Assembly (NCBI GenBank): GCA_018268465.1
Contig: JAFDWN010000011.1
Span: 1 to 60,108 of the forward strand
Length of the DNA stretch: 60,108 nucleotides
Reading direction: 5' to 3'
Origin: Actinomycetota bacterium
GTDB lineage: Bacteria; Actinomycetota; Actinomycetes; Mycobacteriales; Mycobacteriaceae
Shown here: positions 179 through 59,894 of the stretch, one piece after another
How positions within the stretch are numbered: position 1 is the first letter of the stretch
Layout of the letters: each line of letters begins with the position of its first letter
Translations under genes and position numbers: made by a program
The notes under the pieces: model-generated
Told to the model about the DNA's origin: nothing
The model's input: only the letters and a program-made list of their open reading frames with translations
Databases searched by the model: none

Positions 179-1795
179 ATGATTCCGACCGTCGCGGACG
201 TCCTCGCCCTGCCGGTGGTGCAGGCGGGCGCGCCCGAAGTCGTCAGCGCCGAACGCCTCGACCGACTCGTCCGATGGGTGCACGTCAGCGACGTATCCGA
301 CCTATCCGACCTGCTCCAGGGCGGTGAGCTGGTGCTCACGACGGGTCCGGCGCTGCTGGCCGAACCGCACGAATACCTCGATCGGCTGGTGCGCGCCGGC
401 GCTTCGGGGCTGGTCGTGGAGCTCGGCGCCGCCATCCCCGAGCTGCCCCCGTCGGCAGGCAGCACCGCCCGATCCCTGGGCCTGCCCCTGGTGGCGCTGC
501 ATCGCAAGACCCGGTTCGTGGCGATCACCGAGGCCGTACACCGGCTGATCGTCGCCGACCAGTACGAGGAACTGGCCTTCGCACACCGCGCCCACGAAAC
601 GTTCACCGACCTGAGCATGCGGCGGGCGTCGCTGTCCGACATCGTCAACGCGGCGGCGGCCATGATCGGCGAGACGGTCGTGCTGGAGGATCTGTCCCAT
701 CAGGTGCTGGCCGCGTCACCGCAGGGCGAAACCGCCGCGGAGGCGCTGCGGGACTGGCAGCAGCGGTCGCGGATGACCGCCGACGACCGCACCGCGCAGG
801 AACCCTGGACCGTCAGCCCGGTCGGGCCGCGCGGCGAGGACTGGGGCAGGCTCATCATCCCCCGGGCACCACGCACTCCCGCGAAGGCGAAGATGGTGCT
901 CGAACGGGCGGCGCAGGCGCTGGCCCTGCACCGCATGGCCGAGCGCGGGCGTTCCGGGCTCGAACACCAGGCCCAGACCGGGCTGATCGAAGACGTCCTG
1001 CAGGGCCGCATCACCGACGACCGCGAAGCCGAGGCGCGCGCCCACGCTCTGGGCTTGCAGGCTGCGTCGACGTATCTGCCTGCGACCGTGCGGATCTCCG
1101 CGACCGACGAACGCCTGGATCCGGTCGCATCCCAGCGTCGGACGGTCCGGCTGCTGGACGCGGTGGTGCATTGCGTGAAGTCGGCGGGCCACAGCGCGCT
1201 GTGTTCGATCCGTCGCGACGGGGAGATCGGGCTCGTCCTGGCGCTCGCCGCGCGCCGCGGGGTCACCCACGACGCCGCGGTGACTAGACTGGGAGTCGCG
1301 CTGCGAGACAGCATCCGGCGTGGCGCGGACGCCGACAGGGTGGTCTTCGCGCTCGGCTCCGGCGCGGCCACCGTCGTCGACGCCATCCACGGTCTGCGCG
1401 ACGCCGCCCACGTCGCCGACGTGGCACTGGCCATGCCCGAAACCGAGCGGGTGTACTACCGGGCCGCCGACGTGCGGCTGCGGGGTCTGCTCGCACTGCT
1501 GCACGACGACCCGCGGGTGCAGAACTTCGCCGAGACCGAACTCAAGGCGCTGTTGCTGCACGACGCCCACCACGGCGACACCAGCGTGTCGGTGCTGCGC
1601 GGGTATCTCGCACTGGCGGGCAACAAGTCGGCCCTGGCCAAGCGGCTGCACATGAGCAGGCCGGCGCTCTACAGCAGGCTCGACGCGATCGAGCGCATCC
1701 TCGGCGTGGACCTCGCCGACGGCGAGTCCATGACTTCGTTGCACGTCGCTCTGCTCATCCTCGACGCGCACGATGCCGCGCCGCATGCGCGCTGA
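179..1795 (+). CDS. PucR family transcriptional regulator
   Basis: 538 residues with the classic PucR/CdaR layout. An N-terminal PucR domain (about 5-125) opens with IPTVADVLALPVVQAG. A variable middle region follows, and a C-terminal helix-turn-helix (about 475-530) contains GNKSALAKRLHMSRPALYSR. Relatives are effector-responsive activators of nitrogen and amine catabolism (purines, GABA, proline, beta-alanine). The divergent MmsA-like dehydrogenase at the window edge is the most likely target. The gene has no ribosome-binding site, and a TACAAT -10 sits immediately upstream, so the message is probably leaderless. The ATP-grasp gene follows 93 bp downstream on the same strand but appears to have its own -10 element. 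Confidence 0.9.
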   Translation: MIPTVADVLALPVVQAGAPEVVSAERLDRLVRWVHVSDVSDLSDLLQGGELVLTTGPALLAEPHEYLDRLVRAGASGLVVELGAAIPELPPSAGSTARSLGLPLVALHRKTRFVAITEAVHRLIVADQYEELAFAHRAHETFTDLSMRRASLSDIVNAAAAMIGETVVLEDLSHQVLAASPQGETAAEALRDWQQRSRMTADDRTAQEPWTVSPVGPRGEDWGRLIIPRAPRTPAKAKMVLERAAQALALHRMAERGRSGLEHQAQTGLIEDVLQGRITDDREAEARAHALGLQAASTYLPATVRISATDERLDPVASQRRTVRLLDAVVHCVKSAGHSALCSIRRDGEIGLVLALAARRGVTHDAAVTRLGVALRDSIRRGADADRVVFALGSGAATVVDAIHGLRDAAHVADVALAMPETERVYYRAADVRLRGLLALLHDDPRVQNFAETELKALLLHDAHHGDTSVSVLRGYLALAGNKSALAKRLHMSRPALYSRLDAIERILGVDLADGESMTSLHVALLILDAHDAAPHAR

Positions 1796-1853
1796 GGCAC
1801 GACGAGATCCGCCGAGCCCGCCGTAACGACCACCAGAGCGGGCACACCGCCGT

Positions 1854-1859
1854 TAGGGT
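1854..1859 (+). promoter_or_regulatory. Putative -10 element of the ATP-grasp gene
   Basis: TAGGGT fits the mycobacterial TANNNT pattern and lies 29 bases before the ATG at 1889. A weak GCGAGG ribosome-binding site sits in between. No convincing -35 was found. Confidence 0.3.
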
Positions 1860-1888
1860 GGGAAATCCAACGACGAGCGAGGTACGCC

Positions 1889-3706
1889 ATGACAGACCGT
1901 GCGGTTCGATCGAGAGCATCCTCGACGGCGGCCAAGAAGACTCCGGCCACCAAGGCTGCCCCCAAACAGACTGCCGCCAAACAGACTCCGGCCAAGAGGG
2001 CCTCCACCAAGACGGCCACCACCAAGAAGACCCCCGCCGCCACCGCGGGCAGCGGCCAACCGGCCACCGCGAAGAAGTCAGGCGCCGCCGCGAAGAAGGC
2101 CACCGCCACGAAGTCCGCGCCGAAGAGCGTTGCGACGACGACGCCCGCCAAGGCGGCCGGCACCGCGCCGAAACCGGCCACGGCCCGCCAGATCAGCGTC
2201 GGCACCGATGCCGCCTTCGCATCCGGCCAGGGATCGACCCGGCGGCGGCTGCGCAACATCTCCGAGGTCCGGCATTTCTTCCGCACCAACGACGTCCCGA
2301 TCTTCTTCTTCGGCGCCACCCCGTTCAACCTGCTCGGCCTCGACCGCTGGGTGCGCAACTTCTCCTACATCACCTACTACGACGGCTGGGACGGCACCCA
2401 TCCCCGCGTGTTCACCCCGAACCACAAGCCGTACCAGGAGTTCGAGAGCGGGGAGGAGATCAACAACTGGCTGCTCACCAATGCCGAGGTTCGCGCGCAC
2501 ATCGACAGCGTCACCCCACGGGGGGTGCGCCCCAAGGTCGCGATGGTGTTCTTCGACAGCGAAACCGAGGACATCTGCCGCGAACTCGGCTACGACCTGA
2601 TCCTGCCGTCGGCGAGCCTGCGCCAGCACCTCGACTCCAAGATCGTCACCACCCAGCTGGGCAACGAGGCCGGAGCACCCAGCGCGCCCAACGTCCTCAC
2701 TAGGGTCGACGACTGGGCACAACTGCGCGACGTGGCCGAGAAGGCCGATCTGGGAGACGAACTCGTCGTCCAGACGCCCTACGGCGATTCGGGTAAGACG
2801 ACGTTCTTCATCTCCTCGGAAGCCGACTGGAAGAAGCACAGCGCCGACATCGTCGGTGAGGACATCAAGGTGATGCGCCGCATCAACAACCGGCCCGTCG
2901 CGGTCGAGGCCGTCCTCACCCGCTGCGGCACCATCGTCGGACCGTTCATGTCCGAACTGATCGGCTACCGCAAACTGACGCCCTCCCGCGGGGGCTGGTG
3001 CGGCAACGAAATGTACCCCGAGGTGCTCACGCCCGAGAATCGCCGTACCGCAACGCAATTGGTGCGACGACTAGGTGACCGGCTGGCCAAGGAAGGGTAT
3101 CGGGGATTCTTCGAAGTCGACGTGCTGGTCGACACCGACACCGGCGACGTGTACCTGGGCGAACTCAATCCGCGGATCAGCGGGGCCTCGTCGATCACCA
3201 ATGTCACCGCGGGCGCCTACGCCGACGTCCCCCTGTTCCTGTTCCACATCCTGGAGTACATGAACGTCGAGTTCGACCTCGACGTCGACGAGATCAACGA
3301 ACGGTGGGAGGAACTCGCCGCCGAGGACGTGTGGAGCCAGATGATCCTCAAGGAGACCGACGACATCGTGCAGCGGCTCACCGCCACCCCGCGCACCGGT
3401 CACTACTCGCTCGACGCCAAGGGCACGCTGGTCTTCCGCGGTCCCGCGCTGGACTGGCACCAGCTGCAGAACGAGACCGAAGCGTTCTTCCTGCGTATCT
3501 ACGGCCCCGGCGACTACCGCTGGAAGGGTGCCGATCTGGGCGTGGTGGTCACCAAGGGCAGGCTGCAGGTCGACACCGGCAGCGGGAAGTCGGCGCTGGC
3601 GATCCGCGCCCGTCACCTGATCGACTCGATCCGCGCCGAATTCTCGGGCACACCGGTGGCCGCACCCGTCAAACCGCCGACGACTGCGGGAGTCAAATCG
3701 GGCTGA
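1889..3706 (+). CDS. ATP-grasp ligase-like protein with histone-like N-terminal tail
   Basis: 605 residues in two parts. Residues 1 to about 105 are low-complexity Lys/Ala/Thr/Pro with repeated AAKKTPATK-, AKQTPAKRAS- and TTKKTPAAT-type segments. These resemble the basic tail of HupB or eukaryotic histone H1. The rest is a globular ATP-grasp enzyme: HLDSKIVTTQLGNEAG gives the first ATP-binding lysine, LVVQTPYGDSGKTTFF the glycine-rich loop, and VYLGELNPRISG the metal-binding E-x-N-P-R segment. ATP-grasp enzymes join a carboxylate to an amine or thiol through an acylphosphate. General pipelines may label it biotin-carboxylase-like, but no biotin-carboxyl-carrier domain is visible. The substrate is unknown. 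A NylB-type amide hydrolase follows 59 bp downstream. Confidence 0.8.
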   Translation: MTDRAVRSRASSTAAKKTPATKAAPKQTAAKQTPAKRASTKTATTKKTPAATAGSGQPATAKKSGAAAKKATATKSAPKSVATTTPAKAAGTAPKPATARQISVGTDAAFASGQGSTRRRLRNISEVRHFFRTNDVPIFFFGATPFNLLGLDRWVRNFSYITYYDGWDGTHPRVFTPNHKPYQEFESGEEINNWLLTNAEVRAHIDSVTPRGVRPKVAMVFFDSETEDICRELGYDLILPSASLRQHLDSKIVTTQLGNEAGAPSAPNVLTRVDDWAQLRDVAEKADLGDELVVQTPYGDSGKTTFFISSEADWKKHSADIVGEDIKVMRRINNRPVAVEAVLTRCGTIVGPFMSELIGYRKLTPSRGGWCGNEMYPEVLTPENRRTATQLVRRLGDRLAKEGYRGFFEVDVLVDTDTGDVYLGELNPRISGASSITNVTAGAYADVPLFLFHILEYMNVEFDLDVDEINERWEELAAEDVWSQMILKETDDIVQRLTATPRTGHYSLDAKGTLVFRGPALDWHQLQNETEAFFLRIYGPGDYRWKGADLGVVVTKGRLQVDTGSGKSALAIRARHLIDSIRAEFSGTPVAAPVKPPTTAGVKSG

Positions 3707-3708
3707 GC

Positions 3709-3714
3709 TAGGGT
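3709..3714 (+). promoter_or_regulatory. Putative -10 element of the NylB-like gene
   Basis: TAGGGT begins two bases after the stop codon of the ATP-grasp gene and matches the TAGGGT element found before that gene. It may allow independent transcription of the hydrolase, which has an AGGAGG ribosome-binding site at about 3750. Confidence 0.25.
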
Positions 3715-3765
3715 CGTCGGGTACCTACCCGCACTTACGCAGAGGCATCAGGAGGCTGGAAGCAC

Positions 3766-4956
3766 ATGGTGCTCGGCGGCAATCCCGGCCGTGTCCCGTC
3801 CGACGTGACGCTGGAGAACTGGCAATCGGCGGCACAGCTGCACTGGACGTTCCAGCACATCGCCGACTTCCTGCCCACCGCGGTGATCTCCCGCGGCACC
3901 GGTCCGGTCGCCGAGCTGCCGTCCACACCGGAGGTGCTGTCCGACATCCCGCTGCTGGACCACACCAACGGCAAGCGGACGACCGTCGGCGACGTCATGG
4001 CCGCCACGGCCACCGATGGCTGGATCGTCACCAGGCACGGCAAGGTCCTCGAGGAGCACTACTACGGCGGCATGCAGCAGGACACCTCGCATCTGCTCAT
4101 GTCGGTGAGCAAGACCCTGATCGCCACCGTGGTGGGTGCGCTGGTCAGCGACCACGGTCTGGACGTGGACGCCCAGCTGACCACCTACGTGCCGGCGCTG
4201 GCCGCATCGGGATATGCCGGTGCCACCGTGCGAAACCTGCTCGACATGCGTTCGGGTATCAGGTTTTCCGAAGACTATCTGAACCCGATGGCCGAGGTAC
4301 GGCTGCTCGAACAGGCGATCGGCTGGGCGCCGCGGACGGTGCCGGACCTGCCGACGACCATGTACGACTATCTGCTGACGCTGCAGCAGGAGTCACCCCA
4401 CGGTGGCGCGTTCCGGTATCGCTCGTGCGAAACCGACGTCCTGGGCTGGGTGTGCGAGGCGGCCAGCGGCGTGCGCATGCCCGAGCTGATGTCCGAAGTG
4501 CTGTGGAGCAAACTGGGCGCGGAGTACGACGCCTCGATCGGCGTGGACTCCGTGGGCACCGGCATGTTCGACGGCGGGATCAACGCCGGCCTGCGCGACC
4601 TGGCGCGGTTCGGGTCGCTGTTCCTCAACGGCGGGACGGCGCTCGACGGGCGCCCCGTGGTGTCACTGTCCTGGATCGCCGACACCTTCGCCGGCGGCAC
4701 CGACTCCCGCGCGGCGTTCGCGGCCAGCCCCGACGACAACCGCATGCCCGGCGGTATGTACCGCAACCAGTGCTGGTTCCCCTACGCCGGCAACACCGTG
4801 CTGCTGTGCCTGGGTATCCACGGGCAGATGATCTACGTGAACCGGGCGGCCGGCGTGGTGGCGGCGAAGCTGTCGAGCTGGCCGCTGCCCCAGGACGCCA
4901 CCAAACTGTTTCCGACGATCGCCGCATTCGACGAGATCGCCGCGAACCTGTCCTGA
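3766..4956 (+). CDS. Serine hydrolase, beta-lactamase class C / NylB-like
   Basis: 396 residues, cytoplasmic as read because no signal peptide is evident. The catalytic S-x-x-K motif is SVSK (Ser113, Lys116). The general-base tyrosine is in FRYRSCETD, and the C-terminal third motif is the HG of GIHGQMIYVN. This pattern, with Y-R-S in place of the penicillin-binding-protein Y-x-N, is typical of 6-aminohexanoate-dimer hydrolase (NylB) relatives and carboxylesterase-like class C proteins rather than true beta-lactamases. Likely chemistry is amide or ester hydrolysis of an unknown substrate. The ATG has AGGAGG about 10 bases upstream. Its position after an ATP-grasp ligase suggests opposing amide-forming and amide-cleaving activities, which is inference. 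Confidence 0.8.
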   Translation: MVLGGNPGRVPSDVTLENWQSAAQLHWTFQHIADFLPTAVISRGTGPVAELPSTPEVLSDIPLLDHTNGKRTTVGDVMAATATDGWIVTRHGKVLEEHYYGGMQQDTSHLLMSVSKTLIATVVGALVSDHGLDVDAQLTTYVPALAASGYAGATVRNLLDMRSGIRFSEDYLNPMAEVRLLEQAIGWAPRTVPDLPTTMYDYLLTLQQESPHGGAFRYRSCETDVLGWVCEAASGVRMPELMSEVLWSKLGAEYDASIGVDSVGTGMFDGGINAGLRDLARFGSLFLNGGTALDGRPVVSLSWIADTFAGGTDSRAAFAASPDDNRMPGGMYRNQCWFPYAGNTVLLCLGIHGQMIYVNRAAGVVAAKLSSWPLPQDATKLFPTIAAFDEIAANLS

Positions 4957-4962
4957 CCGCGG

Positions 4963-5268
4963 CTACTCGGGCAGCCGCAACTCCGGCTTCTCCACCTCTT
5001 CGATGTTGACGTCCTTGAAGGTGATCACCCGCACCTGCTTGACGAACCGCGCCGGCCGGTACATATCCCACACCCAGGCGTCGCCCAGCCGGAGCTCGAA
5101 GTACACCTCGCCGTTGGAGTTGCGCGGCACCAGTTCCACACTGTTGGCGAGGTAGAACCGCCGCTCGGTCTCGACGACGTAGCTGAACTGCCCGACGATG
5201 TCCTTGTACTCGCGGTACAGCGAGAGCTCCATCTCGGTCTCGTACTTCTCGAGATCTTCAGCACTCAT
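4963..5268 (-). CDS. DUF2469 family protein (Rv2901c homologue)
   Basis: 101 residues, acidic, beginning MSAEDLEKYETEMELSLYRE. It matches the actinobacterial DUF2469 family in length and in its central segment (SYVVETERRFYLANSVEL and VWDMYRPARFVKQV). Function is unknown, although family members are consistently found next to RNase HII, as here. Its stop lies six bases from the convergent hydrolase stop, with no room for a terminator. The start is an ATG without a strong ribosome-binding site, 41 bases after the rnhB stop, so co-transcription with rnhB is likely. Confidence 0.85.
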   Translation of the reverse strand: MSAEDLEKYETEMELSLYREYKDIVGQFSYVVETERRFYLANSVELVPRNSNGEVYFELRLGDAWVWDMYRPARFVKQVRVITFKDVNIEEVEKPELRLPE

Positions 5269-5309: not shown

Positions 5310-6044
5310 TTACCCGAGTTGGCTGTGCCGCTCGGATCCCCAGTCCGGCGATGCGCCGGGCTCGCTGTCCGCGGACGTGCGGGCGGCCGGGGACAACCGG
5401 CGGACGTTGATGAACGAATACCTGTGCTGACTGCACGGTCCGAGCGCGGTCAGCGCGGCGGTGTGGGCCGCTGTGCTGTAGCCCTTATGCTCGGCGAAAC
5501 CGTAGCCGGGGAAGTCGCCGTCCATGCGCACCATCAGTCGGTCGCGGCTCACCTTCGCCAGCACACTCGCCGCCGCGATACACGCCGCGGCGGCGTCGCC
5601 GCCAACCACGGGCAGCGACGGCATCGGCAACCCCGGCACGCGGAAGCCGTCGGAGAGCACGTACCCGGGGCGTACCGACAGTCCCGCCACCGCGCGGCGC
5701 ATGCCCTCGATATTGGCGACGTGCACACCGCGGCGGTCCACCTCCGTCGAGGGGATGAACACCACGTGATAGGCCGCGGCGTACCGGCGGATCAACGGAT
5801 ACAGACGCTCCCGTTCGCGTTCGTTGAGTCGTTTCGAATCGTCCAGCGCGGCAAGGCTGTCCAGCCTGTTGGGGCCGAGTACGCAGGCCGCGACCACCAG
5901 GGGACCCGCGCAGGCGCCCCGGCCGACCTCGTCGACGCCGGCAACCGGGCCCAGACCTCCGCGGTAGAGCGCCGATTCCAGTGTCCGCAGGCCGGCGGAC
6001 TTCCGGATCACCGTCCGGGGTGGCCAGGAGTTCGAGGCGGTCAA
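5310..6044 (-). CDS. rnhB: Ribonuclease HII
   Basis: 244 residues. RNase HII nicks RNA in RNA-DNA hybrids and at single embedded ribonucleotides. The signature [15 protein letters not shown] carries the first two acidic metal ligands (Asp and Glu of DEVGRG). The later segments [17 protein letters not shown] and [19 protein letters not shown] are also family hallmarks. The start is a TTG that overlaps the stop of a 12-codon upstream reading frame as TTGA. No other in-frame start fits the conserved [15 protein letters not shown]-terminus. The gene lies in the usual lepB-rnhB-DUF2469 order. Confidence 0.95.
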
Positions 6045-6079
6045 AGCTGGAGTCCCCGGCTCTTCGCGCGGGCCGACAT
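6041..6079 (-). CDS. Possible 12-codon leader ORF upstream of rnhB
   Basis: An ATG at 6079 follows an AGGAGG ribosome-binding site by four bases and opens a frame encoding [12 protein letters not shown]. Its TGA overlaps the TTG start of rnhB in a TTGA junction, which would couple rnhB translation to it. The AGGAGG overlaps the lepB stop codon. No homology can be judged at this length. Confidence 0.35.
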
Positions 6080-6087
6080 CGCGCCTC

Positions 6088-6936
6088 CTACTGGGACGTC
6101 TGCGGGTTCATCGAATCCACGCCGCCCCAGCGGGCCGGCGGCCACGCGATGAACCGTGCCTTACCGATGACATTCTCCACCGGCACCGTGCCGTTGGTGG
6201 GGTCACCGGTGCACAGCAGCCCGCGCTGGGCGTCGGCCGGCAGACTGGTGCAGTGCGCGCGTGAATCCGCGGAATGGGTGCGGTTGTCGCCCATGACCCA
6301 CAGCCGGCCCTCGGGCACCGTCACGGGGCCGAACTCATTTCCCAAACACTTGTAGACGTTCGGATCGGGCACGTTCATGGTGGCCCGGTCGAGATACGGC
6401 TCGTCGAGCGGCTTGCCGTCGACGGTCAGACCGGTGGTCTCCCGGCATTCGACCGTCTGCCCCCCGACCGCGATGATCCGTTTGACGAGGTCGTTCTCGT
6501 CCGGCGGCACGAATCCGATGAACGACAGCGCATTCTGCACCCATCGCACCGCGGTGTTGTCCGAGCGGATCGACTTGTAGCCGACGTTCCACGACGGCGG
6601 GCCCTTGAAGACGACGACGTCGCCGGGGCTGGGTTCGGAGAACCGGTAGGTCAGCTTGTCGACCATGATCCTGTCGCCGACACAGCCGTTGCACCCGTGC
6701 AACGTCGGCTCCATCGACTCCGACGGGATGAGGTAGGGCCGCGCCACGAACGTCAACATCACGTAGTAGAGCACCAGCGCGATGGCGACCAGGATCGCGC
6801 CTTCACGTAGGGCGCCGTGTTTGCGTTTGGGTTCGGCGGCCGCGTCCGCGCCACCCGATGCCGTCGTGTCGACCGGTTCGGGATCCTCGAGTGTGCGATC
6901 GGGTATCGAGTCGGCGGAGTCCTTGGGTCCGGTCAC
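6088..6936 (-). CDS. lepB: Type I signal peptidase
   Basis: 282 residues. LepB cleaves signal peptides from proteins exported by Sec and Tat at the outer face of the membrane. An acidic cytoplasmic N-terminus (1-45) leads into one transmembrane helix (about 46-64, [17 protein letters not shown]). The serine nucleophile is Ser74 in [10 protein letters not shown], and the lysine general base is Lys152 in [22 protein letters not shown] supplies the conserved late motif. The start is GTG. It is the usual neighbour of rplS upstream and rnhB downstream. Confidence 0.95.
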
Positions 6937-7012
6937 GGGATCAGCGTAGCCAGCGCGGTGGCGGCAGCTGTGCCGCGCGCGCCGCGAGAGTCAGCGTCCG
7001 GCCCGGACAAGC

Positions 7013-7354
7013 TCAGCGCTTTTCCTTGATCTTCGCCTTCTTGCCGCGCAGTTCACGCAGGTAGTACAGCTTGGCGCGACGGACGTCACCGCGGGTGACG
7101 ACGTCGATGTGGTCGATGTTGGGCGAATGCACCGGGAAGGTCCGCTCGACGCCGACGCCGTAGCTTTCCTTGCGCACCGTGAAGGTCTCGCGGACGCCGC
7201 CGCCCTGTCGGCGCAGGACGACACCCTTGAAGACCTGGATGCGTTCCTTGGAGCCCTCGATAACCTTCACGTGCACGTTGACGGTGTCGCCGGGGCTGAA
7301 GTCCGGGATGTCGTCGCGCAGCGACGTCTGATCGACGAAGTCCAGCGTGTTCAT
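7013..7354 (-). CDS. rplS: 50S ribosomal protein L19
   Basis: 113 residues, the normal length, starting [20 protein letters not shown]19 sits at the 30S-50S interface of the ribosome. Conserved segments are [22 protein letters not shown] and the basic C-terminus [14 protein letters not shown]. The ATG at 7354 follows a GGAAG ribosome-binding site. A longer open frame exists upstream but lacks L19 character. A promoter block at 7489-7521, nearly the same as that of rpsP, implies a leader of about 127 nt. Confidence 0.97.
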
Positions 7355-7654
7355 CGGTGACACTTCCTTGCTGTTCGCGGCGCGGGCAGGCTTCCACAAC
7401 AGGGCGCGCTGCCTCGCCGATGTATTCGGGCGTATCTGCGGGTGCGTCTCACAACGGGCGACGGACGGCCCGTGCGGACAACTGCTCAATTGTGCCAGAC
7501 GGGCACCGCTGCAGTGAAATCGTCCGTCCGTCTGCCGTCAACCGGTAAGAAAGCCTAAGTAAGCACAGAGCCAGTGCGCAGGTTAGGCTGTGATTTCTGG
7601 GCTGCGCCGTCGCGCCGGCCCCGCACGGATCGCCAGTACCCCCGGAGGAGGCCT
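7355..7654. other. Intergenic region between rplS and lppW
   Basis: 300 bp between divergent genes with no convincing ORF. It holds the rplS promoter block (7489-7521), a GTGCC/GGCAC inverted repeat (7492-7506) overlapping it, and a TAGGCT -10-like hexamer for lppW (7584-7589). The GGAGGAG ribosome-binding site of lppW lies at 7644-7650. Confidence 0.6.
7489..7521 (-). promoter_or_regulatory. Promoter of rplS (CACAAT -10 with extended TGG)
   Basis: Read on the minus strand, the block begins GATTTCACTG at 7521 and ends TCTGGCACAAT at 7489. It aligns without gaps to the rpsP promoter, with 25 of 33 positions identical. TTCACT serves as a weak -35, with an 18-base spacer. Confidence 0.6.
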
Positions 7655-8581
7655 ATGCGACCGGGGCCGTCGAGGCTCACGACGGTGACCGCGCTCCTCG
7701 TGATCGCCGCGCTGGCCGTGACCGGCTGCGAGGCACGGGTTTACGGAACGCCGCCGCCGGCGCAGGAGGGTCCGCAACTGACCGTCGTCGCGCCGCAGGG
7801 CAGTTTGGCGCCGCTACCGGAGGCGCCGCCGGACGTACCCGCCGCGACGTTCAACGGCCTCGATGAGCGCGCCAGGCAGGCCACGGCCGACGCGGCCGAC
7901 CAGGGCGCCGACATCACCGTGCTGGTCCTGGACCGCAACACCGGCCAGCGCGTATCCAACGGCAACGGGACCACGATCGCGATCGCCTCGGTCGCCAAAC
8001 TGTTCATCGCCGACGACCTGCTGCTGCAGGAGGCGAAGGGGCAGACCGAGCTCTCCCCCGCCGACCGCAAGGCACTCGACGTGATGCTGCGCTCCTCGGA
8101 CGACAACGCCGCGGAGATGTTCTGGAACCGCAGCGGCGGCGGCGACATCATCAGCCGCGTCGCGGCGCGCTACGGCCTCACCTCGACCAGGCCGCCCGCG
8201 AACGGGCGCTGGTGGAACACCATCAGCACCGCCGCCGACCTGGTCCGCTACTACGACATGCTGATGAACGGCAGCGGCGGCCTGCCCCCCGAGCGGGCCA
8301 GCATCATCCTGTCCAACCTGACCCGGTCTACGCCCAACGGCATCGACGGCTATCCCCAGCGCTTCGGCATTCCCGAGGGGCTCTACGCCGAACCGGTCGC
8401 CGTCAAACAGGGCTGGATGTGCTGCATCGGAGCGGACTGGATGCACCTGTCCACCGGCGTGATCGGACCGGATCGGCGGTTCGTGATGGTGATCGGGTCG
8501 TTGCAGGCCGCCAGTGACGACGTCGCCCGCACGACCATCACCCAGGCCGTGAAAACGATGTTCCCCGGCGGACGCATCTGA
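7655..8581 (+). CDS. lppW: Lipoprotein LppW, class A beta-lactamase-like fold
   Basis: 308 residues, homologue of Rv2905. A signal peptide (about 1-22) ends in the lipobox LAVTGC, so the protein should be lipid-anchored outside the membrane. The serine-hydrolase motifs are SVAK (S-x-x-K), RSSDDNAAE in place of the usual S-D-N, and VKQGW in place of K-T/S-G. The overall plan is that of class A beta-lactamases or transpeptidase-like proteins, but the altered third motif makes beta-lactamase activity uncertain. The ATG at 7655 has GGAGGAG five bases upstream; an in-frame extension to 7574 lacks a ribosome-binding site. Confidence 0.85.
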   Translation: MRPGPSRLTTVTALLVIAALAVTGCEARVYGTPPPAQEGPQLTVVAPQGSLAPLPEAPPDVPAATFNGLDERARQATADAADQGADITVLVLDRNTGQRVSNGNGTTIAIASVAKLFIADDLLLQEAKGQTELSPADRKALDVMLRSSDDNAAEMFWNRSGGGDIISRVAARYGLTSTRPPANGRWWNTISTAADLVRYYDMLMNGSGGLPPERASIILSNLTRSTPNGIDGYPQRFGIPEGLYAEPVAVKQGWMCCIGADWMHLSTGVIGPDRRFVMVIGSLQAASDDVARTTITQAVKTMFPGGRI

Positions 8582-8636
8582 CGGCGATTCCGCCCCGCGG
8601 ATGGGTACGCGCTCCGCGTCGGTTTCCGCGCCGACA

Positions 8637-9227
8637 TCATGTCTTCCCCGGCCACCCCGCCAGCGCCTGGTCGGCCACGGCGTGCAGCTCCTCGCGGGTG
8701 GCGCCGCTGCTGGCCTGCACCGAGATGCCCTGGTTGACGGCGTTGATCCAGCGGGAGATGACCATGGGATCCACACCGGGTAGTTCGCCATTCTCCTGGG
8801 CGACGGCGAATCGGTCGGCGAGCAGTTTCACGCCGTCGGCGCGACGGTGGGCGAGGTCGGCCTGTATCGATGCGGCGTCGGCCCCGGCGGCGAGCGCACC
8901 CTGGACGACCATGCAGCCTCGGGGGGTCGTGGGATCGGTGTACGCCTCGACCGCTCCGTGGACTGTCGCGTAGGCGACCTCCCACGCCGTGGATTGGGCC
9001 ATCGCCGCAACGACGAACCCGCCGGGACCCGCCATGTATCGGTCGACGGCCCGGTAGAACAGCCGCTCCTTGGAACCGAAGGCGGCATAAATACTGCGCC
9101 GGTTGATTCCGGTCGCGTCGGTCAGGTCGGTGATGGAGACGCCGTCGTAGCCGTGTTCCCAGAACAGGGTCATGGCGATCTCCAGCACCCGGTCGGGGTC
9201 GAATTCGCGGGGTCGGCCGACGGCCAT
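8637..9227 (-). CDS. TetR family transcriptional repressor
   Basis: 196 residues beginning MAVGRPREFDPDRVLEIAM. The N-terminal HTH contains ITDLTDATGINRRSIYAAFG, typical of TetR proteins of the YxaF/LmrA-like type. The C-terminal effector domain includes RGCMVVQGALAAG, also common in this subgroup. The start at 9227 is preceded by AAGGAGG. It is divergently transcribed from an SDR oxidoreductase 121 bp away, so it very likely represses that gene and itself. The operator candidate is the AACC/GGTT repeat at 9305-9316. This pair has no counterpart between lppW and trmD in M. tuberculosis. Confidence 0.9.
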   Translation of the reverse strand: MAVGRPREFDPDRVLEIAMTLFWEHGYDGVSITDLTDATGINRRSIYAAFGSKERLFYRAVDRYMAGPGGFVVAAMAQSTAWEVAYATVHGAVEAYTDPTTPRGCMVVQGALAAGADAASIQADLAHRRADGVKLLADRFAVAQENGELPGVDPMVISRWINAVNQGISVQASSGATREELHAVADQALAGWPGKT

Positions 9228-9304
9228 CCGCCACCTCCTTGTGATACGGCTCACAACGCGGAATGACTCCGCCATGACATGCGCTTGACCACAGCATACT
9301 TAGT

Positions 9305-9316
9305 AACCAGTCGGTT
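9305..9316. promoter_or_regulatory. Candidate TetR operator
   Basis: AACC-AGTC-GGTT is an inverted repeat of a kind often bound by TetR proteins. It lies between the divergent tetR and SDR genes, 32 bp before the SDR start. A TTGACC at 9285-9290 just upstream could be a -35 element. Confidence 0.4.
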
Positions 9317-9348
9317 CGAAACAATCGACACCACGAACGGAGACCACG

Positions 9349-10128
9349 ATGACCACCACCGCAGCAGCCGAAACCCCCGCCGACTCGGCACCGCCCCTGG
9401 CCGGACGGCGCGCCCTCGTCACCGGCGGTTCGCGCGGCATCGGCGCCGAGATCGTGCGGCGACTGGCCGCCGAGGGCGCCGCGGTCGCCTTCACCTACCA
9501 TTCCTCACCCGAACAGGCCGAGGCACTCGCCGCGACCCTCACCGCGGCGGGCGGAACCGTGGTGGCCATCCGGGCAGACAGCGGAGACGCCGACGCCATC
9601 GGGGCTGCCGTCGACGACGCCGCCGGACGGTTGGGCGGGCTGGACACCCTGGTCAACAACGCCGGCGTCGCTCACATCGCCGACGTCGACACCTACCCCC
9701 TCGACGAGTTCGACCGCATGCTGGCCATCAACGTCCGCGGGGTGTTCGCCGCCATCCAGCGGGCGCTGCCGCATCTGGGTGCCGGCGGGCGCGTCATCAC
9801 GATCGGCAGCGTCAACGCCGACCGCGTCCCCGTCGCCGGACTCGCCGCCTATGCGATGACCAAGGCGGCCGTCGCGGGTCTCACCCGCGGCCTGGCGCGC
9901 GAACTCGGGCCACGGGGCATCACCGTGAACAACATCCAGCCGGGCCCGGTCAACACCGACATGAACCCCGAGGCCGGCGAGTTCGCCGACGTGATGCGCG
10001 GCCTGACCGCGGTGGGGCGCTACGGCCAACCCCGCGACATCGCCGATGCCGTCGCCTATCTGGCGCGACCGGAGACGGGATACATCACCGGGGTCAACTG
10101 GAACGTCGACGGCGGCTACACCCTGTGA
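9349..10128 (+). CDS. SDR family NAD(P)-dependent oxidoreductase
   Basis: 259 residues. A classical short-chain dehydrogenase: the cofactor loop is LVTGGSRGIGAEI, NNAGVAHIAD is the structural N-N-A-G, and the active site is the Ser of IGSVNAD with YAMTK (Tyr-x-x-x-Lys). PETGYITGVNWNVDGGYTL closes the domain. The loop sequence suggests a 3-oxoacyl reductase-like or xenobiotic carbonyl reductase, but the substrate cannot be named. It is regulated in all likelihood by the divergent TetR. It converges on trmD, separated by a strong hairpin. Confidence 0.92.
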   Translation: MTTTAAAETPADSAPPLAGRRALVTGGSRGIGAEIVRRLAAEGAAVAFTYHSSPEQAEALAATLTAAGGTVVAIRADSGDADAIGAAVDDAAGRLGGLDTLVNNAGVAHIADVDTYPLDEFDRMLAINVRGVFAAIQRALPHLGAGGRVITIGSVNADRVPVAGLAAYAMTKAAVAGLTRGLARELGPRGITVNNIQPGPVNTDMNPEAGEFADVMRGLTAVGRYGQPRDIADAVAYLARPETGYITGVNWNVDGGYTL

Positions 10129-10134
10129 TCACCT

Positions 10135-10173
10135 CGGTGCCGACACGTGCGGCCAGCGCACGTGTCCGCACCG
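10135..10173. terminator. Bidirectional hairpin between SDR gene and trmD
   Basis: CGGTGC-C-GACACGTGC (10135-10150) pairs with GCACGTGTC-C-GCACCG (10158-10173) around a 7-base loop. The stem has fifteen base pairs and one C-C mismatch. It lies exactly between convergent genes and has no U-tract, as is usual in mycobacteria. Confidence 0.75.
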
Positions 10174-10176
10174 ACA

Positions 10177-10854
10177 TCACGGCAGGAGGTCGGGGCGGCG
10201 TTCGCGGGTCCGCCGCAGCGACTGTTCACGACGCCACGCGGCGATCCTCGCGTGGTCACCCGACAGCAGCACCTCGGGCACATCCAGTCCGCGCCAGCTG
10301 GCCGGCCGGGTGTAACTCGGCCCCTCGAGCAAACCGTCGGAGTGCGAATCATCCTGGTGCGAAACGGGATTGCCCAGAACGTCGGGCAGCAGCCGGACCA
10401 CCGCCTCGATCATGACCAACGCGGCCGATTCGCCGCCGGCGAGCACGTAGTCCCCGATCGACACCTCTTCGACCCGCATCCGGCGGCCGGCGTCGTCGAC
10501 CGCCCGTTGGTCGATACCTTCGTAGCGGCCGCACGCGAACACCAGATGCGATTCGCCGCTCCAGCGCTGCGCAGCGGCCTGGGTGAAGGGTGTGCCCGCA
10601 GGCGAGGGCACCACCAGAAGTGAACGTTCCGAACAGATCTCGTCCAGCGCCTCACCCCACACCGGCGCCTTCATCACCATGCCGGGACCGCCGCCGTAGG
10701 GCGAATCGTCGACCGACCGGTGCACATCGTGGGTCCAGCGCCGCAGATCGTGCACGCCCAGCCGCACGATCCCCGCGTCGATGGCCTTACCCGGCAACGA
10801 CTGCCGCAGCGGATCCAGATACGCGGGGAAGATCGTGATGACGTCGATGAGCAT
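10177..10854 (-). CDS. trmD: tRNA (guanine-37-N1) methyltransferase
   Basis: 225 residues. TrmD methylates G37 of tRNAs that read CNN/proline-type codons, using S-adenosylmethionine, and so prevents frameshifting. Family motifs are [13 protein letters not shown] at the start, [13 protein letters not shown], the SAM-binding trefoil-knot segment [10 protein letters not shown], and [14 protein letters not shown]. It is the last gene of the rpsP-KH-rimM-trmD operon, 12 bp after rimM. A strong hairpin follows its stop. Confidence 0.97.
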
Positions 10855-10866
10855 GGCGGCGCAGGC

Positions 10867-11388
10867 TCAATCCAGGTCGAAAAGACCGTCGGGGGGATCG
10901 ATGTCGATGACGCCGTCGTCCCGCGACACCGACGTCACGATGGCGCTGACGAAGGGCACCAGCAACTCGCGGCCGTCCGGTGAGCGCACCGACAACAGTT
11001 CCCCCGCCGGCGTGTGCAGCACCTCGGTCACCGTGCCGACCTCGTCGCCGGCCGCGGTGCGCACCCGCAGACCCTCCAGCTCGTGGTCGTAGAACTCGTC
11101 CGGCCCGTCGATGGGCGGCAGATCGGCGGAGTCGACCAGGAACAGGGTGCCGCGCAGGGCATCGGCGGCGTCCCGATCGGTCACGCCGGCCAGCCGCACC
11201 AACAGCCTGCCGGCATGCTCGCGCACCGCCTCCACGACGAAACTCCGGTCGGCGCCGCCCCGGGAGGGTCGGCCGCGCAAGGTGCAGCCGGATGCGAACC
11301 GTTCGCCGGGGTCGTCGGTGCGGACCTCGACCACGAGTTCGCCGGAGATACCGTGCGCTTTGGCGACGCGCCCGACTACCAGGTCCAT
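10867..11388 (-). CDS. rimM: Ribosome maturation factor RimM
   Basis: 173 residues. RimM binds S19 and assists maturation of the 30S head. The N-terminal RimM domain begins [20 protein letters not shown], and the C-terminal PRC-barrel covers about 95-170, with [13 protein letters not shown]. It sits between the KH-domain gene and trmD in the conserved operon. Confidence 0.96.
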
Positions 11389-11430
11389 AGATGTTCGCCC
11401 GAATGCGGCCCGCGGTCGGCGGTCACGACG

Positions 11431-11673
11431 CTACTGGTCGGTGTCCACCACGTCGACACGGATGCCGCGCCCGCCGATCCCGGCGACCAGGGTGCGCAGC
11501 GCGGTCGCGGTGCGCCCGCCGCGCCCGATCACCTTGCCCAGGTCATCGGGATGCACGTGCACCTCGACGGTGCGGCCACGCCGGTTGGTCACCATGTCCA
11601 CCCGGACGTCCTCGGGGTTGTCCACGATCCCGCGGACCAGGTGTTCGACCGCGTCGACGACGACGGAACCCAC
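11431..11673 (-). CDS. KH-domain RNA-binding protein (KhpA type)
   Basis: 80 residues, homologue of Rv2908c. A single KH domain contains the RNA-binding G-x-x-G loop in KVIGRGGRTATALRTL. Relatives (KhpA/YlqC) act with KhpB as RNA chaperones affecting cell division and translation. The GTG start lies eight bases after the rpsP stop, consistent with translational coupling. The encoded C-terminus IRVDVVDTDQ is well conserved in mycobacteria. Confidence 0.93.
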   Translation of the reverse strand: MGSVVVDAVEHLVRGIVDNPEDVRVDMVTNRRGRTVEVHVHPDDLGKVIGRGGRTATALRTLVAGIGGRGIRVDVVDTDQ

Positions 11674-11681
11674 AGCCGCGC

Positions 11682-12146
11682 TCAGTTCTCGCCGGCCGGG
11701 GCGTCCGCGGGAGCCTCGGCGTCGGCGGCCGGGGCGTCACTCGACTTGGGCGCCGCGGGCGCCTTCTTCTTCTTGAGCTGGGTGGCTTCACCGGTCGGGG
11801 CGCCGTCGGCAGCCGCCAGCGCCGCGTTGAACAGGTCGAGCTTGCTGGGCTTGGGCTCCTTGACCTTCAGGGTGCCCTCAGCGCCGGGCAGACCCTTGAA
11901 CTTCTGCCAGTCGCCGGTGATCTTCAGCAGCGCCAGAACGGGTTCGGTCGGCTGGGCGCCGACGCCGAGCCAGTACTGCGCGCGCTCCGAATCGATCTCG
12001 ATCAGGCTCGGGTCTTCCTTCGGGTGGTACCGGCCGATGACCTCGATGGCGCGGCCGTCGCGGCGGGTGCGCGAATCGGCTACGGCGACGCGGTACTGGG
12101 GATTGCGGATCTTGCCGAGCCGGGTGAGTTTGATCTTGACAGCCAT
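11682..12146 (-). CDS. rpsP: 30S ribosomal protein S16
   Basis: 154 residues. The core (1 to about 85) starts [20 protein letters not shown] and contains [20 protein letters not shown]. The C-terminal extension is rich in Ala, Lys and Pro ([10 protein letters not shown], then an Ala/Asp/Pro tail), as in other actinobacteria. The ATG at 12146 is chosen because upstream codons lack S16 similarity. It is the first gene of a four-gene operon driven by the promoter at 12329-12361, giving a leader of roughly 175 nt. Confidence 0.97.
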
Positions 12147-12328
12147 GGGTGAAGCACGTCTCCTGTGTGTGCCACGCTGCAATTCAGCGATCACGGGCGG
12201 GCTGCCCGGATCCGGTTTTGCCTTACGTGTGTGACCTCCGCACGGCGCATCGAGCACGTGGCCGCAGGCGTATCGCTCGCCGCGGGCCTACTGCGCGGCG
12301 AACCGAGTCGCGCGGTGGACAGCCGCCC

Positions 12329-12361
12329 ATTGTGCCAGATCAGCCACGCCGGAGAGAAATC
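12329..12361 (-). promoter_or_regulatory. Promoter of the rpsP operon
   Basis: On the minus strand the block starts GATTTCTCTC at 12361 and ends ATCTGGCACAAT at 12329. The -10 is CACAAT with an upstream TGG. It matches the rplS promoter at the same spacing. TGTCC occurs at the probable transcription start of both genes. Confidence 0.6.
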
Positions 12362-12364
12362 GCC

Positions 12365-12787
12365 TCAGACCAGCTTGTCGAAGCACTTGGTCTCCACACG
12401 GCGGCTCATCCGCCACCCCTCGGCGGTCCGGACGAACTCGTCGTCGTACCACAGCCCGCAGAACAGGACCTGCCCGTCGCCGCCGAGCACCATCGGGTTG
12501 AAGCAGATCGTCCGCGACGACGCGCGGTCACCACCCTCGGCGATCCGGATGTCGACATTGCCCAGCATGTGGGCGTAGGCGGGGAAGTTGGGCAGCACCT
12601 CGGCCAGCCAGGATTTGACCTGCGGATAGTGGCCGTCAATGCCCCCCATCGCGCGATAGTCGATGTAGGCGTCGCCGGTGAACACGCGGTCGAGGTCGTC
12701 GAAGCGCCGCCGGTCGATCGCCGTGGAGTAGTCGATCAGCAGCTGCTGGATCTCGAACCGGTCCGAGATCTCGGCGAGGCTCATCAT
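12365..12787 (-). CDS. SnoaL-like nuclear-transport-factor-2 fold protein (Rv2910c homologue)
   Basis: 140 residues beginning MMSLAEISDRFEIQQLLIDY. The N-terminal helix with YSTAIDRRRFDDLDRVFTGD and the central YIDYRAMGG are typical of SnoaL_4/bile-acid 7-alpha-dehydratase-like proteins of the NTF2 superfamily. The C-terminus FVRTAEGWRMSRRVE is also characteristic. Members are small dehydratases, isomerases or ligand binders, and the substrate here is unknown. Both ATG codons at 12787 and 12784 are possible starts. It is divergent from dacB2 with 58 bp between. Confidence 0.85.
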   Translation of the reverse strand: MMSLAEISDRFEIQQLLIDYSTAIDRRRFDDLDRVFTGDAYIDYRAMGGIDGHYPQVKSWLAEVLPNFPAYAHMLGNVDIRIAEGGDRASSRTICFNPMVLGGDGQVLFCGLWYDDEFVRTAEGWRMSRRVETKCFDKLV

Positions 12788-12831
12788 GCGGTGATTCAAC
12801 ACTGACCCGCCGGCCGGCCGGGCGCGAGGGT

Positions 12832-12837
12832 TAGGCT
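12832..12837 (+). promoter_or_regulatory. -10 element of the first dacB gene
   Basis: TAGGCT, followed by eight bases and then the ATG. No Shine-Dalgarno sequence is present, suggesting a leaderless or near-leaderless transcript. The same spacing occurs before the second dacB copy. Confidence 0.4.
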
Positions 12838-12845
12838 GACCGGCC

Positions 12846-13721
12846 ATGGTGAGGTTCGTCGCGGCCGTCGCGATCGCGCTCATGGCCCTGATCACCGTCG
12901 GCGCACCGTCCGCCGGCGCGGATATCGACATCCGGCCCGCGGGATCGGTGCCGATCCCCGAGGGCCCCGCCGAAGCCTGGGTCATCGCCGACCTGGACAC
13001 CGGCCAGGTGCTGGCCGGGCGCAACGAGAACATCCGGTACGCGCCCGCGAGCACCATCAAGACGCTGCTGGCGCAGGTCGTCCTCGACGAGGTTCCGCTC
13101 GACGCCACGATCGTGGCCGACGAGGCCGACACCCGGGTGGAATGCAACTGCGCCGGCGTGGCACCCGGACAGACCTACACCGCCCGCCAGCTCCTCGAGG
13201 CCCTGCTGCTGGTGTCGGGCAACGACGCGGCCAACACCGTGGCCCGGATGCTCGGCGGTCAGGACGCCGCGGTGGCGAAGATGAACGCCAAGGCCGCGGC
13301 CCTCGGCGCCTACGGGACCAACGTGGTGACCCCGTCGGGGCTCGACGGACCCGGCATGCCGTTCTGGTCCACCCCGCACGACCTCGCGGTGATCTTTCGG
13401 GCGGCGCTGGCCAACCCCGTATTCGCCCAGATCACCACCATGCCCTCGACGGTGTTCCCGACCGCCACCGGCGACCGCGTCCTGGTGAACCAGGACGAGT
13501 TGCTGCACCGCTACCCGGGGGCGATCGGCGGGAAGACGGGCTTCACCGACATCGCCCGCAAGACCTTCGTCGGCGCCGCGCAGCGCGACGGCCGCCGTCT
13601 GGTGATCGCGATGATGCACGGCCTGGTCAAGGAGGGCGGTCCGACGTACTGGGACCAGGCCGCGGCACTGCTGGACTGGGGTTTCGGCCAGGACCGCAGC
13701 GCCGGTATCGGGTGGCTCTAA
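12846..13721 (+). CDS. dacB2: D-alanyl-D-alanine carboxypeptidase (DacB2 type)
   Basis: 291 residues, homologue of Rv2911. A signal peptide (1 to about 25, AVAIALMALITVGAPSAGA) exports it. It is a penicillin-binding S11 peptidase with ASTIKTL (S-x-x-K), SGNDAAN (S-x-N) and GGKTGFTD (K-T-G). It trims the terminal D-Ala of peptidoglycan stem peptides, limiting cross-linking. There is no C-terminal membrane anchor. A close paralogue follows 101 bp downstream. Confidence 0.93.
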   Translation: MVRFVAAVAIALMALITVGAPSAGADIDIRPAGSVPIPEGPAEAWVIADLDTGQVLAGRNENIRYAPASTIKTLLAQVVLDEVPLDATIVADEADTRVECNCAGVAPGQTYTARQLLEALLLVSGNDAANTVARMLGGQDAAVAKMNAKAAALGAYGTNVVTPSGLDGPGMPFWSTPHDLAVIFRAALANPVFAQITTMPSTVFPTATGDRVLVNQDELLHRYPGAIGGKTGFTDIARKTFVGAAQRDGRRLVIAMMHGLVKEGGPTYWDQAAALLDWGFGQDRSAGIGWL

Positions 13722-13808
13722 ACCCCGATCTCACCGAAGTTGCTGATTCGCAACGTATCCGAGATCCGTTCAGGGCCTGATCGAGACACTTCCGCGCGGC
13801 GGTGCCGA

Positions 13809-13814
13809 TACGCT
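13809..13814 (+). promoter_or_regulatory. -10 element of the second dacB gene
   Basis: TACGCT, eight bases before the GTG at 13823, mirrors the TAGGCT-N8-ATG arrangement of the first copy. This supports 13823 over the upstream GTG at 13802. Confidence 0.35.
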
Positions 13815-13822
13815 CGCCCTCC

Positions 13823-14692
13823 GTGGCCATCGTTTCGCGAAAGCTGTTGGCGGCGTTGGCCACCGTGGCCAGCGTTCTGGCGACCCCCGCCGTCGTCACC
13901 GCCGTACCGGCCGCGCGCGCCCAGCCGAGCGTGGAACCGGCAGGGGCGCTGACGATTCCGCAGGGCCCGGCCCGGGCGTGGCTGGTCGCCGACATGGACA
14001 GCGGACGTGTCCTGGCGTCGCGGGACCCCTATGCCCTCTCCGCGCCGGCCAGCACCATCAAGGTGCTGCTGGCGATGGTGGTCCTCGACCAGGTCAACCT
14101 GAACGCGGCGATCGTCGCCTCCCCCGCCGCGACGGCCGTCGAGTGCAGCTGCGCCGGCGTCAAGGCCGGCCGTGTCTACACGGCGCGTCAGCTGCTCGAC
14201 GGCCTGCTGCTGGTCTCGGGTAACGACGCCGCCAACACGCTGGCCGACATGCTGGGCGGCAGACCGGTCGCCGTGGCCAAGATGAACGCCAAGGCACGGT
14301 CGCTGGGCGCCCGCAACACCCGAGCCGCCACCCCGTCCGGCCTGGACGGCCCCGGGCTGCTGTCGGCCACGACGGCGCACGACCTGGCCGTCATCTTCCG
14401 CGCCGCGATGCAGTATCCGGCCTTCGCCCATATCGTCCGACAGCCCTCGGCGCCCTTCCCGTCCGGCGACGGCGCCGGTTTCCGGCAGCTGACCAATCAG
14501 AACGAGTTGATGCGGCGCTATCCCGGCATGCTCGGCGGCAAGACCGGCTTCACCAACATCGCCCGCAAAACCTACGTCGGCGCCGCCGAACGCAACGGCC
14601 GCCGGCTGGTGGTCGTGCAGATGTACGGCACCGGCGACCTGTACGGACAGGCGATGGGACTGCTGGACTGGGGTTTCAGCCAGAGCCGGTGA
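13823..14692 (+). CDS. D-alanyl-D-alanine carboxypeptidase, tandem paralogue
   Basis: 289 residues with a signal peptide (VAIVSRKLLAALATVAS, then Ala-rich to about residue 33). S11-family motifs are ASTIKVL (S-x-x-K), SGNDAAN (S-x-N) and GGKTGFTN (K-T-G), all intact. It is clearly duplicated from the preceding gene: AVECSCAGVKAGRVYTARQL here matches the equivalent segment there. Sequence divergence and the retained catalytic residues suggest an old, functional duplication. In M. tuberculosis this place holds unrelated genes (Rv2912c-Rv2914c). Its 3' end overlaps the convergent amidohydrolase gene by 17 bp. Confidence 0.92.
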   Translation: MAIVSRKLLAALATVASVLATPAVVTAVPAARAQPSVEPAGALTIPQGPARAWLVADMDSGRVLASRDPYALSAPASTIKVLLAMVVLDQVNLNAAIVASPAATAVECSCAGVKAGRVYTARQLLDGLLLVSGNDAANTLADMLGGRPVAVAKMNAKARSLGARNTRAATPSGLDGPGLLSATTAHDLAVIFRAAMQYPAFAHIVRQPSAPFPSGDGAGFRQLTNQNELMRRYPGMLGGKTGFTNIARKTYVGAAERNGRRLVVVQMYGTGDLYGQAMGLLDWGFSQSR

Positions 14693-15776: not shown

Positions 15777-15780
15777 GGAG

Positions 15781-58946: not shown

Positions 58947-59894
58947 GTGCCCAGAAAAGACCCACCGGCAGCGGTGCCGGGTGGCGGTAAGGACATATTC
59001 GCGGCCGGGGCGGTGCTGTGGCGAAGGGGCTGTGGCTCAACGCCGGAGGCCGGACACCCCATCGAGGTGGCCGTCGTGCACCGCCCCCGCTACGGCGACT
59101 GGTCGCTGCCCAAGGGCAAAGTCGACCGCGGGGAGAACGAACCCGTCACCGCGGTGCGTGAGGTGCACGAGGAAACCGGCTATACCGCGCATCTGGGGCG
59201 CCAGCTGGCGGAAGTCAGCTATCCCGTCGGCCCGGACACCAAGCGGGTGCGCTATTGGGCGGCGCGCTGCGTCGACGGCGAATTCAGCGCGAACTCCGAA
59301 GTCGATCAGCTGATCTGGCTGCCGGTCGACGCGGCGATGGAACGACTCGTCTATGAGCACGATCGGAAGGTGTTGGGCGGGTTCACCGAACTCCCAGCCG
59401 ATACCCGGACCGTGTTGGTGGTGCGGCACGGCAGTGCGGGCAGCAGGGCACGCTACCGCGGCGACGATCGGGTGCGGCCGCTGGACAAACGCGGGCGCGC
59501 TCAGGCCGAAGCCCTCGTCGGCCAGCTGCTGGCCTTCGGCGCCGACACGGTGTATGCCGCGGATCGGTTGCGCTGCCACCAGACGGTTGCACCGCTCGCC
59601 GAGGAACTGGGCGTGCCGATCAGCGACGAGCCGACGCTCTCCGAGGAGGCGTACACCGCCGACCGCAAGGCGGCGCGGCGCCGTTTGATCGAGATCGCCG
59701 ACGCCGGCGGCACACCCGTGATCTGTTCGCAGGGCAAGGTGATTCCGCACCTCGTCGCGTGGTGGGGCGAACGCGACGGCGTGCAACCCGACACCGCACG
59801 CAACCGCAAGGGCAGTACCTGGGTGTTGTCGTTGATCGACGGCAAGCTCGTCGCCGCCGACCACATCGACAGCCCGCTGGCCATCGTCACGTGA
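58947..59894 (+). CDS. mutT1: MutT1: Nudix hydrolase fused to a histidine phosphatase domain
   Basis: 315 residues. MutT1 sanitises oxidised nucleotides (8-oxo-GTP and diphosphates) and hydrolyses diadenosine polyphosphates. The Nudix box (about 57-79) reads [14 protein letters not shown], then REVHEETGY. The C-terminal histidine phosphatase domain starts [12 protein letters not shown], with His161. The GTG follows GGAG by about six bases. It lies between ppk and hupB as in all mycobacteria. Confidence 0.96.

Follow-up and report, generated by a model that had tools for sequence, protein, structure and literature searches.

The locus and its reading frame

Near the beginning of the 60,108-nucleotide stretch of mycobacterial DNA analysed here (the window), the list of open reading frames places the gene of an ATP-grasp protein of 605 residues at 1889-3706 on the plus strand, starting at ATG 1889. 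Its first 100 residues are a lysine-rich tail that is predicted to be disordered, and genes for a PucR-type regulator and a NylB-type serine hydrolase lie on either side. The features referred to below are as follows.

179-1795, plus strand: PucR-type regulator gene, upstream of the ATP-grasp gene (PucR 6.8e-31, HTH_30 8.4e-16)
1889-3706, plus strand: ATP-grasp protein, 605 aa, of family NF005096 (PRK06524, "biotin carboxylase"), by an NCBIfam match of 725 bits and by fold
1889-1918, plus strand: conserved protein start, residues 1-10, MTDRAVRSRA; of MSDRPVR type in eight relatives, median dN 0.108
1919-2188, plus strand: predicted disordered Lys/Ala/Thr/Pro tail, residues 11-100; pLDDT 39-49, median dN 0.57, tandem repeats of whole codons
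2189-2224, plus strand: conserved short motif QISVGTDAAFAS, residues 101-112, with a variable linker of about 9 residues after it
2252-3652, plus strand: ATP-grasp core, residues 122-588
3766-4956, plus strand: serine hydrolase gene of NylB type, 60 nt past the end of the ATP-grasp gene; residues 7-376 match 6-aminohexanoate-dimer hydrolase at E 8.7e-70
60012-60107, minus strand: end of a HupB-type gene, a lysine tail for comparison, named from an earlier preliminary description of this DNA and from composition

The lysine tail of the ATP-grasp protein is translated, because it holds no other start codon and because its start is common to eight close relatives. Within 1889-2251 no in-frame ATG, GTG or TTG exists besides ATG 1889, the next being GTG 2351 inside the core, and the eight relatives share the MSDRPVR-type start (MTDRPVR, MSGDRPVR and MSERPVR included), then diverge freely and agree again from the motif on. 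GAGG lies 5' of ATG 1889. In 1889-2203 the first, second and third codon positions have GC fractions of 0.52, 0.74 and 0.85, compared with 0.63, 0.43 and 0.89 in the core. That translation begins past the tail and the repeats are never made, as the fast evolution of the tail might suggest, has virtually no chance of being right in view of the missing start codon, the conserved protein start, the third-position GC and the GAGG, and the same lack of any in-frame start between ATG 1889 and 2351 contradicts the late start that the preliminary description had named as the finding that would overturn it. A scan of 1700-5100 returned no promoter-like site, and the two terminator-like sites in this range, with 1.1 expected, are both on the minus strand.

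Residues 1-100 contain 17% lysine, 5% arginine, 1% aspartate plus glutamate and 67% alanine, threonine, serine and proline, with a net charge of +21 and four KK doublets; the Lys/Ala/Thr tail that had been described ahead of an ATP-grasp enzyme is thus real, as is the HupB-type tail at the window's other end, which reads KKAVATKAPVKKAAATKAPAKKAAPAKKGRK followed by a stop codon. The repeats, put earlier at about 105 residues, are genuine as well but end near residue 100, and residues 101-112 form a separate conserved motif. Taken by tens of residues, AlphaFold pLDDT is 34-49 in the tail and mostly above 85 in the core. A stretch of 80 residues as rich in lysine and in alanine, threonine, proline and serine occurs at a single place in the window's six frames, namely this tail; 20 first-order Markov resamples of the window gave none. 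Among 977 neighbourhood proteins, a set that like the neighbour clusters includes duplicate loci, such a lysine-rich stretch is found in 22, and 21 of these belong to the family's 132 members. The Pfam HC2 histone model matches the tail at E 0.0027, far below its cut-off, and reaches E 1 at only one other place in the whole genome; we set aside an HC2 histone identity and take this as a match of composition.

The DNA underlying the tail is tandemly repeated in units of 15, 18 and 21 bp, all whole codons, and the tail turns over quickly. Across 36 pairs from nine sequences, median dN is 0.57 in the tail, 0.065 in the core, 0.108 in the protein start and 0.132 in the motif, the tail dS of 1.39 being near saturation and undefined in 11 of the 36 pairs.

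A variable N-terminus and a conserved motif

How widely is the tail shared? The comparison drew on 133 entries (132 loci and the window), which became 126 once six core-identical entries (L001, L002, L040, L043, L045 and L046) and one with a partial core (L053) had been left out; 80 of the loci are the best 80 of 184 confirmed, and counts lean to close relatives. In the tree of these 126 distinct cores three groups can be told apart. The window falls among 87 rows (support 100), another 30 mycobacterial rows make up a group of their own (support 100), and a group of nine rows includes the window genome's second copy, with a support of 87 that lies under the 95 mark.

Tails could be measured in 82 of the 87 members of the window's clade and range from 8 to 513 residues (median 65), with start codons assigned by a simple rule that makes single lengths uncertain, above all in the group of 30, and that probably places the start too late in L101, L130, L110, L111, L041 and L070 of the window's clade. 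Net charge is zero or negative in 26 of the 82 and at least +10 in 25, and lysine makes up less than 5% in 27. The domain combination that the preliminary description proposed to search for does recur, as tails of at least 100 residues in 18 of the 82, net positive in all 18, but neither length nor charge is conserved. Summed over these 18 proteins, the tails hold 489 lysines, 116 arginines and 221 acidic residues, and their cores 289, 555 and 1213, so tails favour lysine and cores arginine. Relatives with cores 87-90% identical to that of the window carry between 17 and 120 residues ahead of the motif. Homologues lacking the tail, earlier named as counterevidence, are approached by L037, the core of which is 88% identical to the window's and which has only 17 residues ahead of the motif, yet among the nine closest sequences, the window included, all nine tails are net positive (+3 to +33).

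Lysine tails also occur on the other type of paralogue. In the nine-row sister group, L035 and L036 have a Lys/Ala tail of their own, 148-163 residues long, with net charges of +49 and +43 and without the VSVGTDAAFA motif, and the other seven rows have 13-34 residues ahead of the core; this looks like a separate gain. Within the genus, the NF005096 cut-off is reached in 76 of 198 genomes, and the window type, present in 11 of these with the window genome counted, is thus a minority form. In three of the 198 genomes the window type coexists with the second type, and every time exactly one of the two copies is strongly charged: the window copy in the window genome (G000, +21 versus +6 for the second copy), and the second type in G087 (+43 versus +4) and in G109 (+49 versus +6). 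Because L035 (from G109) and L036 (from G087) pair in the tree with a support of 99, the charged second type in these two genomes makes, together with G000, two events at most.

More distant homologues differ again at this end. Four annotated proteobacterial homologues, all plasmid-borne, have their start codons 4-29 codons before the core match, and across the phylum the family cut-off is reached in 15 of 396 genomes, 5 of them from the window's genus. Outside the class, a membrane-helix-like segment (19-residue hydropathy of at least 1.8, starts putative) precedes the core in 6 of 10 loci taken from the other of these genomes; the homologues with this segment are L144, L145, L147, L151, L153 and L154. 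Since the segment stands there instead of a tail, the N-terminus looks like a site for localisers. It is a variable add-on, of which lysine tails are one form, and the joining of tail and ligase is real, on an unusual host protein, but is not an invariant fusion.

The better conserved element is not the lysine tail but the short VSVGTDAAFA motif by the core, which is absent from the preliminary description and is parted from the core by the variable linker. DAA[FY] is present at the junction of tail and core in 66 of the 87 clade members and in none of the 39 others; it is absent or altered in 21 of the 87, and the stricter form [VIM][GA]TDAA[FY] is found in 60. Two AlphaFold models, the second of an almost tail-less relative with a 74-row clade alignment in which 61 rows have DAA[FY] ahead of the core, give the motif a pLDDT below 50. 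Neither model predicts that the motif of a monomer docks on its own core; it may make contact within a dimer or with a partner.

The ATP-grasp core and its hydrolase neighbours

The protein matches NF005096 over residues 114-594 at 725 bits, against a cut-off of 684, and its core has an ATP-grasp fold of the biotin-carboxylase type. By NCBIfam and by fold the ATP-grasp domain is therefore complete, as had been claimed, but the ATP-grasp models in Pfam all stay short of E 0.1 on this protein. The family name "biotin carboxylase" is doubtful here because the bicarbonate-site residues are replaced, NPRIQVE in pyruvate carboxylase corresponding to NPRISGA in this protein (RIQVE to RISGA), where we take the Q, V and E after NxR to be the bicarbonate-site residues of biotin carboxylase. 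With these residues replaced, a true biotin carboxylase is unlikely. Pfam gives no match to the Biotin_carb_C domain on the protein, though it misses the ATP-grasp core too. Defence-system models match neither this protein nor the hydrolase.

The standing neighbour of the core is a hydrolase gene. From the NylB, C45/AAT, M20 and amidase neighbours, together with fold and sequence, we infer that the core is probably an amide (carboxylate-amine) ligase. A NylB-type hydrolase gene lies in the flank of 114 of the 126 actinomycete loci; it is downstream on the same strand in 105, at a distance of at most 400 nt in 104, and placed elsewhere or inverted in nine. No hydrolase is found in the available sequence of the remaining 12, three of which have less than 300 bases of downstream sequence and four of which have 1.5 kb. 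The window's hydrolase has an SxxK sequence within HLLMSVSKTL, which we take to play the role that this motif has in NylB-type hydrolases. As a standing partner of the ATP-grasp family in actinomycete loci, the hydrolase also gives a clue to the role that NylB has in nature, and the window's two genes look like part of an amine-breakdown operon.

Some of these loci contain genes of amine pathways. An Orn/Lys/Arg-type decarboxylase, an aldehyde dehydrogenase, a GABA-aminotransferase-like gene or a copper amine oxidase lies near in 31 of the 91 loci with more than 6.5 kb of sequence (23 of 83 in the window's clade and 8 of 8 in the others), the background rate coming from the window alone; by the same clustering, none of the four types occurs within the window's 60 kb. 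At the window genome's second ligase copy (L054; G000:C6:200000-219000, 5374-16631), the adjoining genes encode two hydrolases, a GABA-transaminase-family protein, an aldehyde dehydrogenase, a PucR regulator, an acyl-CoA dehydrogenase and a protein most like succinate-glutarate CoA-transferase, below the cut-off of that model. This gene order would suit the breakdown of 5-aminovalerate to glutarate.

Homologues beyond the actinomycetes have hydrolases of other types nearby. Two rhizobial homologues, located beside the nif genes, have a decarboxylase-type gene upstream, a C45 peptidase gene directly after and a NylB-type hydrolase some 9 kb further along. The stretches concerned, on symbiosis plasmids of Rhizobium leguminosarum (L135 11272-25337 and L140 9195-23341), hold a decarboxylase-type gene, the "biotin carboxylase", a C45 peptidase, an ABC transporter, an amidase and the NylB-type hydrolase beside nifHDKEN. 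A Shinella locus contains guanidino-acid genes. Outside the class, four downstream proteins were examined and each is of AAT/C45 type; such a hydrolase lies downstream in L145 and L151, and an M20 peptidase lies upstream in L144 and L145. Near the HupB-type end of the window, 53 kb from the ligase, are genes that we take to be polyphosphate-kinase-like (56689-58887) and MutT-like (58947-59894), and no link between them and the ligase was seen in the window.

Possible roles and relation to known systems

Why attach a polycationic tail to a metabolic ligase? The explanation that we tentatively favour, with a probability somewhat short of even, is an amide ligase of amine breakdown that is paired with NylB, carries a disordered polycationic tether for polyanions and docks through its motif. 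The ligase, a carboxylate-amine enzyme of amine or omega-amino-acid breakdown, would make an acyl-amine that the neighbouring NylB-type hydrolase would open. The first 100 residues would form a translated, disordered tether without a part in catalysis, which in the window's lineage would most likely act through charge alone to hold the enzyme loosely on polyanions (nucleoid DNA, RNA, polyphosphate or anionic membrane), and the VSVGTDAAFA motif would dock on a partner. Translation, disorder, composition, fast turnover, the conserved motif and the gene pairing are supported by computation; the amide chemistry, the association with polyanions, the docking of the motif and a tail that is dispensable for catalysis are what we infer. 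A loose electrostatic tether fits the window's lineage, since positive charge is kept in all nine of the closest tails and their sequence is not, but it cannot be the role of the family at large because so many clade tails, 26 of 82, have no net positive charge. Across the clade, the motif is a better candidate for a specific contact than charge. A polyanion-binding tail is possible, and placement on the nucleoid is conceivable on that basis.

A more specific form of this proposal, which we consider doubtful, makes the ligase and its NylB-type partner an amide make-and-break pair in the breakdown of lysine, cadaverine and 5-aminovalerate or of putrescine and GABA, held on polyanions by a lysine tail that arose repeatedly. 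The ligase would cap one amine, so that the aldehyde at the other end could not ring-close, and the hydrolase would take the cap off the omega-amino acid; in some lineages a lysine tail, arisen more than once and on either paralogue, would keep the ligase where polyamines gather. If true, this would explain what the nylon-oligomer hydrolase NylB does in nature.

It is also quite possible that the tail amounts to a disordered, nearly neutral spacer that lengthens and shortens by in-frame repeat slippage. Only the motif, in the role of docking peptide or oligomer contact, and the protein start would then be functional, and the lysines would do no more than keep the spacer soluble. The spread of lengths, the whole-codon tandem repeats, the high dN of the tail next to a far better conserved motif and the many tails with less than 5% lysine are all consistent with this, but the excess of lysine over arginine and acidic residues in the 18 long tails, each net positive, and the presence of a lysine tail in the motif-less L035 and L036 argue against it. 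An unlikely alternative is that the lysines are targets of modification, by acetylation as in HupB, by pupylation or by the ligase itself, so that the tail would be regulatory or self-modified: lysine stretches of HupB and Ku are described as acetylated, and pupylation as limited to actinobacteria (PMC7398561), and the enzyme probably acts on amines, which the lysine side chain resembles, but tails are lysine-poor in many members. Very improbable, finally, is a cargo-loading tag for a protein compartment; that role has been proposed for the N-termini of family 2 encapsulin cargo, which have a comparable layout, long and disordered and with a short conserved motif (PMC8346489), but the encapsulin motifs GPTGLGT and TVGSL are absent from residues 1-112, and none of the annotated neighbours is named as a shell gene.

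That lysine tails occur on both paralogue types of this metabolic ligase provides a natural test of tail function, since enzymes with a long tail can be set against nearly tail-less ones whose cores are 88% identical. The gene pair, for its part, gives a concrete starting point in the search for the natural substrate of NylB-type hydrolases and calls the name "biotin carboxylase" into question, and the pairing may be a more useful lead than the tail. A literature search on the ligase, its pairing with NylB, the rhizobial neighbours, encapsulin cargo and lysine tails, in which few subscription journals were covered, found no study of this ATP-grasp protein.

Several known systems resemble parts of this one. 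Actinobacterial lysine repeats are described in HupB, TopA and Ku, and the LR tails of HupB and Ku as needed for DNA contact and as acetylated (PMC7398561); LR tails are reported predominantly in DNA-binding proteins (PMC11229371), and the lysine-rich disordered N-terminus of YihI is reported to be able to bind polyphosphate (PMC12345225). These cases serve as precedents for the tail, not as evidence on the ATP-grasp protein. As in the LR tails of HupB/HupS, TopA and Ku, the window's tail is of low complexity and lysine-rich, contains KK doublets, is predicted to be disordered and occurs in a high-GC actinobacterium (PMC7398561, PMC11229371), and like them it consists of degenerate, lysine-enriched repeats. 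LR tails, however, stand at the C-terminus of a DNA-binding protein, whereas this tail stands at the N-terminus of a metabolic ATP-grasp enzyme, and here length and charge vary from species to species. Because the core is an ATP-grasp enzyme and not the usual DNA-binding host (HupB, TopA, Ku or HrdB), we describe the tail as LR-like and stop short of classing it as an LR domain.

The comparison with NylB concerns the neighbouring gene, the product of which is a nearly full-length match to 6-aminohexanoate-dimer hydrolase; here, in contrast, the gene lies beside that of an ATP-grasp ligase, and at other loci near decarboxylase, amine oxidase, aminotransferase, aldehyde dehydrogenase and CoA-transferase-like genes. 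In the Puu pathway, which proceeds by gamma-glutamyl-putrescine capping, a ligase and an amide hydrolase likewise flank amine oxidation, PuuA being a ligase of the glutamine-synthetase type and PuuD a hydrolase of the class-I-amidotransferase type. The gene context suggests the same logic at the loci described here, carried out by different enzymes: an ATP-grasp ligase and hydrolases of NylB or C45 type.
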